A stretch of 64,000 bases of DNA from assembly GCF_007679495.1 (NCBI RefSeq), contig NZ_VEGP01000027.1, positions 1-64,000 on the forward strand, given 5' to 3'. How positions within the stretch are numbered: position 1 is the stretch's first letter; each line of letters begins with the position of its first letter. Below, in pieces: positions 6,464 to 38,337 of the stretch. The DNA comes from Paenibacillus sp. 32O-W. GTDB lineage: Bacteria > Bacillota > Bacilli > Paenibacillales > NBRC-103111. Both the position numbers and the translations under genes were made by a program. The notes under the pieces are model-generated. The model saw nothing but the letters and a program-made list of their open reading frames with translations, was not told where the DNA came from and did not search any database.

Positions 6464-6799
6464 GTGGACAAAAAAGAACTATTTTTACAGATAGAACAAA
6501 TGGAAGAACGGATGAGCGCAAATCTTGCCGACCTCAATTCTTTAAAACAACAGCTTGTCCTTGTCATGGAGGAAAATCACCGTTTGACGAACGAGAACCA
6601 ACAGCTCAGGAAATTATTGAAGAAGGACACCTCTGGCGAAGTCAAACATCAAGAAGGGAAAGAAACGCCGGTCATAGGAGAAGGCTACGATAACCTGGCC
6701 AGACTATACTATGAAGGCTTTCATATATGTAATGTTTATTACGGGCATCTTCGTAATGAGGGAGATTGCTTGTTCTGCTTATCTTTTTTGAATAAATGA
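6464..6799 (+). CDS. yabA: Replication initiation control protein YabA
   Basis: YabA (111 residues) restrains replication initiation by bridging DnaA and the DnaN clamp. Residues 1-50 form a leucine-zipper-like coiled coil for tetramer formation. The C-terminus carries the zinc ligands in HIC and CLFC within the highly conserved last 25 residues. It starts with GTG at 6464, 25 bases after ricT, and ends the tmk operon just before a strong terminator. Confidence 0.95.
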
Positions 6800-6803
6800 T
6801 TCT

Positions 6804-6834
6804 ACCGCAGAGATATAAGTCTCTGCGGTTTTTT
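6804..6834 (+). terminator. Terminator after yabA
   Basis: ACCGCAGAGA pairs perfectly with TCTCTGCGGT around a six-base loop, followed by six T. The next element, the structured repeat, begins inside the T run. Confidence 0.92.
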
Positions 6835-7151
6835 ACCACATCCGAAAGTTAAATTTACTAAATCATAAAGTAAAGATCTTTCGGATTGGCATGAAAAGCT
6901 ACCACTAAAGAAGAATTTGACGACATCTCTGATTGGGCATCAATAGAAGCTTTTCTTACCACATCCGAAAGTTTGAATTTACTAAAGCATGACAGTAAAG
7001 ATCTTTCGGATTGGCATGAAAAGTTACCACTAAAGAGGAATTTGACGACATCTCTGATTGGGCATCAATAGAAGCTTTTCTTACCACATCCGAAAGTTAA
7101 ATTTACTAAATCATAAAGTAAAGATCTTTCGGATTGGCATGAAAAGTTACC
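6833..7151 (+). repeat. Three tandem copies of a structured hairpin element
   Basis: Copies start at 6833, 6956 and 7081 (periods 123 and 125). Each begins TTACCAC, then a 9-bp helix ATCCGAAAG/CTTTCGGAT (6840-6848 with 6878-6886; 6963-6971 with 7003-7011; 7088-7096 with 7126-7134), extended inside by TTTACT/AGTAAA, then TTGGCAT and GAAAAGYT. In the first two copies GAAAAGYT (6893-6900, 7018-7025) can pair with AGCTTTTC (6948-6955, 7073-7080). Copy three lacks that last arm. A diverged copy lies at 38205-38337. It may be an RNA or a small DNA element; the strand is not settled. Confidence 0.75.
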
Positions 7152-7187
7152 ATATTATTTTCAGATTAAAGTTGTGAGGGAAATATC

Positions 7188-7979
7188 ATGGAATCGATTC
7201 CGGTAAAACTCCAGGAACACGAACGGGTTGATGATTTATTGACGAATGATTTGCACATCATTCAAAGTGGCGAGGTCTTCAGCTTTTCGATGGACGCTGT
7301 TTTGTTGTCTCGCTTTTGTACGGTACCGCCACGGGGTAAAATCATGGATTTATGCACAGGGAATGGAGTTATTCCACTGCTGCTGACAACCCGTACCAAG
7401 GCTAATATATGGGGGGTAGAAATTCAGGAGCGGCTTGCCGATATGGCGGACCGGAACGTGCGTCTTAATGGTCTGGAAGAACAGGTCCGCATCATGCAGG
7501 GCGATTTGAGGACCATTCATGAGACATTGGGCTATGGGAAGTTTGATTTGGTAACGGTCAATCCTCCTTATATGAAAGCCAGAACCGGGGATCAGAACCT
7601 AAACCCCCATGTTGCGGCGGCACGGCATGAAATCTTCTGCACTCTGGATGATGTAGCAGCCGCTTGCAGCAGACTGGTCCGAACAGGGGGCAAAGTAGCG
7701 ATGGTTCACCGTCCCTCCCGACTGGTGGAGATTTTGCATGCGTTAAGTAAGTACAGGCTGGAAGCGAAGCGTATCCGTTTTGTTCATCCCCGGCAAGGGG
7801 AAGAAAGCAACATGGTGCTAATTGAAGCGATTCGCGACGGCAAGCCGGAAGTGAAGCTGCTTCCTCCGCTTATTGTCTATAAGAATAATCATGAATATTG
7901 CGAGGAGCTCATGGAGATCTATTATGGCAATAGGGATAGCCTGTCGTCCGAAGAAGGAAAGGAAGGAGGGGAAAGATGA
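7188..7979 (+). CDS. tRNA1(Val) adenine-N6 methyltransferase family protein (YabB)
   Basis: A 263-residue class I SAM-dependent methyltransferase. The SAM-binding motif DLCTGNGVIPLLL is at residues 54-66 and the catalytic NPPY motif of N6-adenine methylases at 125-128. It corresponds to B. subtilis yabB; the E. coli relative TrmN6 methylates A37 of tRNA-Val, so that substrate is inferred. A GAGGG ribosome site precedes ATG 7188. Its stop overlaps the rsmI start by four bases (ATGA), so the two are translationally coupled. The GIY-YIG gene yazA normally found between them is absent. Confidence 0.9.
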   Translation: MESIPVKLQEHERVDDLLTNDLHIIQSGEVFSFSMDAVLLSRFCTVPPRGKIMDLCTGNGVIPLLLTTRTKANIWGVEIQERLADMADRNVRLNGLEEQVRIMQGDLRTIHETLGYGKFDLVTVNPPYMKARTGDQNLNPHVAAARHEIFCTLDDVAAACSRLVRTGGKVAMVHRPSRLVEILHALSKYRLEAKRIRFVHPRQGEESNMVLIEAIRDGKPEVKLLPPLIVYKNNHEYCEELMEIYYGNRDSLSSEEGKEGGER

Positions 7980-38165: not shown

Positions 38166-38206
38166 AGAGGCATCCGCGAGAATGCTTCTCTTTTTTACCA
38201 TTTTTT
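38166..38206 (+). terminator. Terminator after tRNA-Met
   Basis: AGAGGCAT (38166-38173) pairs with ATGCTTCT (38182-38189), one G-T, followed by six T at 38191-38196 and a second T run. Confidence 0.75.
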
Positions 38207-38337
38207 ACCACAAAGGAATCTTTAAGTTCTTACCGTTTTAATACGATGAAGAACAAGGATTCCTATTGGCATAGAAAGCTACCTTTAAAACCGGGTTATT
38301 CGACTTCGAAAAGGCTTCGTTTTAGAAGCTTTTTTTA
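38205..38337 (+). repeat. Diverged single copy of the structured hairpin element
   Basis: Same order of parts as the array at 6833: TTACCAC, outer helix AGGAATC/GATTCCT (38214-38220 with 38258-38264), inner helix GTTCTT/AAGAAC (38226-38231 with 38249-38254), then ATTGGCAT and GAAAGCT. Helix sequences differ from the array but pairing is kept. GAAAGCT (38274-38280) can pair with AGCTTT (38327-38332), or that arm can join a terminator hairpin AAGGCTTC/GAAGCTTT (38311-38318 with 38325-38332) followed by T. The rest of the 38119-38591 gap holds no gene. Confidence 0.7.

Follow-up and report, generated by a model that had tools for sequence, protein, structure and literature searches.

PATEs are palindrome-ended, non-autonomous derivatives of IS200/IS605. 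The bcr1 repeat is, according to the descriptions at hand, limited to the B. cereus group. REP sequences are described as palindromes of 20–40 bp, most of them tagged at one end by GTAG or CGTC, and the CGTC superfamily apparently has no dedicated transposase (PMC3733652). The cleavage sites of IS200/IS605 elements are described as pairing with guide sequences 5′ of each palindrome (PMC8266576). Insertion at intrinsic terminators has been reported for group IIC introns (PMC4424553, PMC8919778).

The repeat analyzed here is, in our best reading, of the same broad kind as the bcr1, REP and PATE repeats. We filed it under none of them because their defining features failed or because the comparison was by description only. 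It resembles bcr1 as an orphan, non-coding, mobile-looking Firmicute repeat of the 100–400 bp type with many copies, and T-rich ends occur in it too. The bcr1 descriptions consulted, the sole basis of this comparison, mention neither targeting of terminators nor a terminator end made by the repeat itself. Like REP sequences, the element is intergenic and bears structure, but it has two hairpins, a T-tract target, no link to Y1 transposases and, in the class-wide alignment, no GTAG or CGTC tag. Membership in the REP/RAYT system was rejected, as there is no tagged palindrome of 20–40 bp and a Y1 gene occurs in only 27 of the 80 genomes with the element. Integron cassettes offer an analogy only: each unit brings its own 3′ attachment hairpin, which allows tandem line-up, whereas the present element carries no gene. 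A DDE-type MITE was also rejected, with no inverted repeat of at least 12 bases in 6500–7500, none joining the ends in the fold and no target duplication beyond the Ts at the placed sites.

The original prediction could not assign the repeat to a named family, and this agrees with Rfam release 15, which gave no match. The strict search of the window (the whole analyzed stretch of 64,000 nt from Paenibacillus sp. 32O-W) returned only a tRNA, and with permissive settings seven loci yielded three weak matches, all falling far short of the gathering scores. A description of the repeat was not found in the open-access literature searched (titles and abstract openings). We propose an orphan, non-autonomous, terminator-targeted mobile element. 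That it is mobile and targeted to terminators we hold with high confidence; the whole statement, which includes recognition as a folded strand and an enzyme acting in trans, we hold with moderate confidence.

The array behind yabA

The element forms an array on the forward strand, which Tandem Repeats Finder reports at 6829–7152 (score 588, 93% matches). Repeat analysis confirmed three hairpin-bearing copies with start-to-start distances of 123 and 125 bases. Copies 1 (6833–6955) and 2 (6956–7080) are complete and score 98.6 bits each with the covariance model R1. Copy 3 (7081–7152; 72 of 123 query bases matched) is truncated after GAAAAGTTACCA and consists of hairpin 1 and the A-rich segment only, without the second half of the unit. 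The original prediction, which described three copies, proposed a covariance model built from four; the array itself holds three, and a diverged fourth, from another subfamily, is located in the same window at 38205–38337 on the forward strand (R1, 120.5 bits). The terminator scan placed this fourth copy behind a terminator-like hairpin and T-rich stretch (38166–38204, forward strand) and found a terminator-like end of its own. At its left edge, TTTTTTACCA occurs twice in succession (38191–38210), possibly the stub of an earlier insertion into the same T-tract.

The gene upstream of the array (6464–6799, forward strand) is yabA, as predicted, encoding the DNA replication initiation control protein (139.4 bits for NCBIfam NF009644.1, whose cut-off is 130), and is itself preceded by a gene matching RicT/YaaT. 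The intrinsic terminator of yabA, identified by the terminator scan with an 11-bp stem and T run (6804–6835, forward strand), is the apparent insertion target. Its terminator-like stem (6804–6829) and T run stand directly 5′ of copy 1, and the array begins within this T run. On the other side, the gene 3′ of the array is methyltransferase-like, scoring below all NCBIfam cut-offs, and the distance from the array end at 7152 to its ATG at 7188 is 35 bases, one fewer than first given. Inside the array there is no ORF of at least 50 codons; an opposite-strand ORF (6672–6839) only overlaps the array edge, and the translated frame through the unit is interrupted by stops.

Unit structure and covariation

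Each unit begins with TTA(C), followed by hairpin 1 and a short A-rich segment; a middle part then leads to a terminator-like hairpin with a T-tract at its end. The unit length is mostly 115–135 bases, and 112–133 in 31 class-wide sequences with two hairpins, which start with TTA(C) or variants and have the T-tract at the end. Hairpin 1, located at 6836–6889 in copy 1, consists of a CCA/TGG foot with a bulged C, a 9-bp stem and a variable inner helix. The fixed flanks TTACCAC, TTGGCAT and GAAAAGYT, the 9-bp outer helix and the inner TTTACT/AGTAAA helix were present in the window copies as originally described, and the outer helix in addition has the foot, which is altered in distant relatives (CCG/CGG, CTG/CAG or CAG/CTG). 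The C-to-T change noted in copy 2 also leaves GAAAAGTT able to pair with AGCTTTTC, with one G-T. The A-rich segment reads GAAAAGC in the window copies and AAAAAGC in many copies of the same genome; in copy 1 it lies at 6893–6900 (GAAAAGCT, forward strand) and is complementary to the T-rich 3′ end of the same element. That end, AGCTTTTC (6948–6955, forward strand), is followed by the TTA of copy 2, so that, by sequence and by the junction rule derived from empty sites, the T-tract target is recreated. The terminal hairpin is weak in the window copies and absent from the terminator scan, which did report that of the 38-kb copy.

Compared with dinucleotide shuffles, one unit folded as RNA reached z-scores of −3.06 on the forward and −4.73 on the reverse strand, and the forward strand folded as DNA −3.77. 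Three helices covary: hairpin 1, the terminal terminator-like hairpin and a helix between the A-rich segment and the tail. In the 31 class-wide sequences, aligned by MAFFT without fitting the structure, we counted cells with two-sided changes and found 69 for hairpin 1 (27.2 in shuffled alignments; at most 26 in the slid control), 22 for the terminal hairpin (6.0 shuffled; 0 slid) and 18 for the A-rich segment with the tail (5.8 shuffled; at most 3 slid). A set of 22 sequences from two species, covering hairpin 1, a middle helix and the terminal hairpin, gave 48 such cells against 20.0 after shuffling and at most 6 with the partners slid by 1–3 columns. Kinship inflates the comparison with shuffles, and the slid controls are the safer ones. 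A second measure, pairs with change on both sides, gave no excess over shuffles for hairpin 1, the terminal hairpin or the A-rich/tail helix in the 31 sequences. The small middle helix, paired in 62% of cells in the 22 sequences, is not claimed. Many homologs with both helices broken had been named as the case against the prediction; this objection fails because compensatory changes conserve the structure.

A single tail base can pair either with the A-rich segment or with the terminal hairpin's 5′ arm. In 27 of the 31 sequences, the three bases involved vary in concert (G,G,C or A,A,T), and therefore both tail pairings seem to be kept. A-rich segments matched their own tail over 7.49 bases and the tails of other elements over 5.91 (192 sequences, including some weak, partly opposite-strand R1 matches), or 7.71 and 6.45 bases in 119 chosen copies; shared descent contributes to this fit. 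On the element strand, the stem of hairpin 1 contained 32 G-T against 5 A-C pairs, besides 863 Watson-Crick pairs and 68 other mismatches, in a count that omits 15 of 136 distinct stems with fewer than 5 of 8 pairs. This excess of G-T over A-C points to the element strand as the folded one. Since the stem sequence is exchanged freely, hairpin 1 would be recognized by its shape.

Two loci of the same genome (L012 on contig C206 and L017 on C162) contain units that share the second half but have a very different first hairpin with a GATGC/GCATC foot, also in tandem; the spacer of L012 contains CCTGTGCACAGG. These units are a subfamily with an exchanged hairpin 1.

Insertion sites and target preference

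The original prediction offered a mobile DNA hairpin as one of its readings, and empty sites, species-specific presence and dispersed copies support this reading well. We read 30 yabA loci (the best of 104 genomes, including that of the window): the terminator end is present in all 30, the array in that of the window only. For the window array itself, divergence of the right flank prevented exact placement of the empty site. In four close species (L106, L109, L111 and L113), the short stretch AAAGAAAGTTTAACTTACTTTAGACGATGAAG and variants of it are found behind the yabA terminator. Such a stretch, present in at least four loci, might be what is left, in degenerate form, of an earlier insertion behind this terminator.

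A joined-flank search covered nine insertion sites in ten close species, and aligned empty relatives were found for all nine. The empty site could be placed to the base in four cases (L126, L139, L148 and L149) and within ~3 bases, in T/A-rich sequence, in four others (L127, L128, L136 and L142); at L124 the empty relative is too diverged for placement. The empty state of L149, CCTTTTTT^ATAGCTGG, is common to five species, and the filled site reads CCTTTTTT[TTAACG...GTTTTTCTT]ATAGCTGG. L126 (GTCTGTTTT^ATTCATG) is likewise exact to the base. The entry point lies 3′ of the T-tract and ahead of an A, and apart from the Ts nothing is duplicated. In the empty relatives, the base after the T-tract is mostly A; the exceptions are one relative with C (L126) and two of five with G (L149). 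One convergent terminator carries a copy on one strand in G068 and G087 and on the other strand in G073, each arrangement representing the empty site of the other. At three loci (L165, L168 and L174), shortened remnants of the element occupy sites where other species have either the full element or an empty site, and because of these remnants, loss by internal deletion, rather than by clean excision, also happens.

These sites bear on the reading that the repeat is not mobile at present and is instead a selected structured RNA, a bidirectional terminator or an insulator, kept or lost by lineage. Its structure is strongly conserved on the element strand, the coupled change of A-rich segment, terminal 5′ arm and tail base in 27 of 31 sequences would fit a two-state RNA switch, an A-run at the 5′ end and a T-run at the 3′ end would be suited to terminating transcription on either strand, and the shortened remnants document loss. 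Yet the empty sites are species-specific and lie at many unrelated terminators, no neighboring gene recurs among 520 ORFs near 146 copies, judged by translation, and tandem copies are near-identical. We therefore regard this reading as very unlikely and return to that of a mobile element.

The copies lie 3′ of a T-tract and are oriented as the terminator is. The 58 full-length copies analyzed in the genome of the window comprise 13 directly behind another copy, 13 nested in a second repeat and 32 others. Defining a stable hairpin as one of at most −8 kcal/mol in a 30-base window, we found it before 25 of 32 first copies in this genome (L025, L216 and L239 among them stand behind the apparent end of another copy, so that the hairpin may be the element's own), compared with 27 of 148 control sites with a T-tract and A in the window. 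Among 65 copies in named genomes, one had insufficient flank; a stable hairpin preceded 43 of the remaining 64, compared with 33 of 199 intergenic T-tract-A sites, and the other 21 stand behind T-tracts without one. Given these proportions with and without it, the hairpin is strongly preferred but not required.

We suggest that the non-coding element would integrate just 3′ of a T-tract, preferably that of an intrinsic terminator and in the terminator's orientation. The junction would fall directly after the last T, and the following base is A in the filled copies as well as in the majority of empty sites. With its own terminator-like hairpin and T-tract at the 3′ end, each insertion would recreate the target, which is shown in part. 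Because the unit ends in a hairpin and T-tract, a unit once inserted offers a new target, which accounts for the tandem arrays. The element would be recognized as a folded single strand, its right end by hairpin and T-tract, and a putative enzyme supplied in trans would move it. More speculatively, and tentatively, it could represent a new class of mobile elements in Bacilli that uses terminators as attachment sites and its own 3′ terminator as the next one, similar to attC, with the folded strand moved by a putative novel transposase.

Judged by sequence, the unit would add a terminator for the host, possibly in both directions owing to its 5′ A-run and 3′ T-run. Insertion behind terminators would be a low-harm strategy with a self-renewing target. 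The element, with recent insertions and no Rfam family, would explain part of the intergenic repeat content in many Paenibacillus genomes.

Distribution among genomes and candidate mobilizers

A covariance-model search of family genomes, as the original prediction had proposed, detected the element with R1 in 80 of 104 genomes, and in 187 of 392 genomes of the order and 37 of 398 of the class, the order and class samples overlapping. R1 E-values are rough, and genomes with a single weak match may be false. The highest copy counts per genome are lower bounds, with at least 33 in the family, at least 8 in the order and at least 8 in the class. The genome of the window yielded at least 56 matches with one consensus query, a lower bound because only the best 40 of 161 candidates were scored, and 91 matches in 57 stretches with R1. 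In a contig collection, at least 77 pattern hits were obtained; R1 at an E-value of 0.01 matched 70 of 71 Paenibacillus/Paenibacillaceae loci and none of the six from other taxa, which were discarded. One exact pattern match in viral contigs lies within coding-like DNA and by eye is a chance match. Tandem arrays sharing the T-tract occur in the window, in a second species of the genus and in other genomes, and some tandem copies are near-identical.

Neither Y1 transposase nor RVT_1 genes co-occur significantly with the element in the family genomes (80 with and 24 without it, four of the latter entered by elimination). Of the 80 genomes with the element, 27 have Y1 genes (PF01797) and 60 have RVT_1 genes; among the 24 without it, the counts are 9 (Fisher p 0.81) and 13 (Fisher p 0.07), respectively. 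Fourteen element genomes have neither; two of these consist of a single contig, with 29 and 14 matches counted. The genome of the window, listed as 100% complete, has two Y1 genes, no RVT_1 and at least 33 counted copies. Genomes with copies but without Y1 or RT genes narrow the search for the mobilizer.

Movement by a resident Y1 transposase, as for a classical IS200/IS605 derivative (PATE) or a REP sequence, would account for hairpins near both ends, a strand-biased fold, subfamilies that differ in the hairpin stem and insertion 3′ of a short motif without target duplication, the latter observed at T-tracts in eight of nine sites within ~3 bases. The element shares with PATEs these subterminal hairpins, the mode of insertion and a single-strand logic, but it lacks an A-rich guide 5′ of hairpin 1. 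The only candidate guide, the A-rich segment, shows no specific fit to its target: it matched its own target over 5.43 bases and swapped targets also over 5.43 (119 copies), which counts against IS608-style target choice by pairing. PF01797 is not associated with the element, and 26 of 44 genomes with at least ten counted matches have no Y1 gene. Three groups among 20 Y1 copies (14 copies) have left ends starting with TTGAT, TTATCA or (T)TTAAC, unlike the element; the six copies of a fourth group have no clear end. One of these 20, L353, does stand behind terminator-like sequence, and most Y1 elements read insert behind other motifs. PATE membership was rejected on the differing ends in this sample and on the lack of guide fit, and movement by a resident Y1 transposase appears improbable. 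A match to a known insertion-sequence end, which would have spoken against the prediction, did not appear in this sample of Y1-transposase insertion sequences, to which the check was confined. R1 applied to 31 Y1 and 10 RT loci gave matches near two Y1 genes only (L049 and L192), without bounding the gene. An IS200-like Y1 transposase gene at L048 (contig C160) in the genome of the window contains a single in-frame TGA, and its ends are unlike the repeat; from its sequence, this transposase is probably inactive.

A retroelement, SINE-like or derived from a group IIC intron, would be a folded RNA copied into DNA behind terminators by a resident reverse transcriptase. Group IIC insertion is not known to cause target duplication, and a stretch of 115–135 bases is far too short for a group II intron. 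The G-T bias of the hairpin 1 stem suits a sense RNA, and RT genes are somewhat commoner in element genomes. The target behind intrinsic terminators, preferred though not exclusive, is shared with group IIC introns, for which such a preference is described (PMC4424553, PMC8919778). In contrast to the element, with its ~115–135 bases and no ORF, these introns are ribozymes that mostly encode a reverse transcriptase. The genome of the window has no RVT_1 despite its copies, as do 8 of 44 genomes with at least ten counted matches, and there is no match to a group II intron family. Group IIC membership was thus rejected for lack of an Rfam ribozyme match and of RVT_1 in this genome, and we consider a retroelement unlikely.

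No recurrent mobilizer-like neighbor was seen among 520 ORFs within 1.2 kb of 146 copies (15 largest clusters, judged by translation); the ORF clusters beside copies resemble host paralog families. Because the resolved Y1 ends differ, no mobilizer-like neighbor recurs in these clusters and the A-rich segment fits its own target no better than others, we favor a trans-supplied enzyme acting on the folded single strand. By analogy, an HUH-type single-strand transposase, similar to those of IS200/IS605 or REP, is a plausible candidate that falls somewhat short of an even chance. A hairpin-directed recombinase or a reverse-transcription route is possible, and the mobilizer may have been lost after recent activity.

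In the genome of the window, another dispersed repeat, which has hairpins of its own (...CTTATACCTGTTCTT^ATATTTCATCGGTAAACG...), contains the element at L014, L215, L217–L219, L223, L225 and L231–L236 and is un-nested at L016. As 13 of the 58 copies occupy one and the same place in it, the two may spread as a composite, and the 13 nested copies may have been carried along with it. A similar hairpin adjoins an element copy in another genus (L089).
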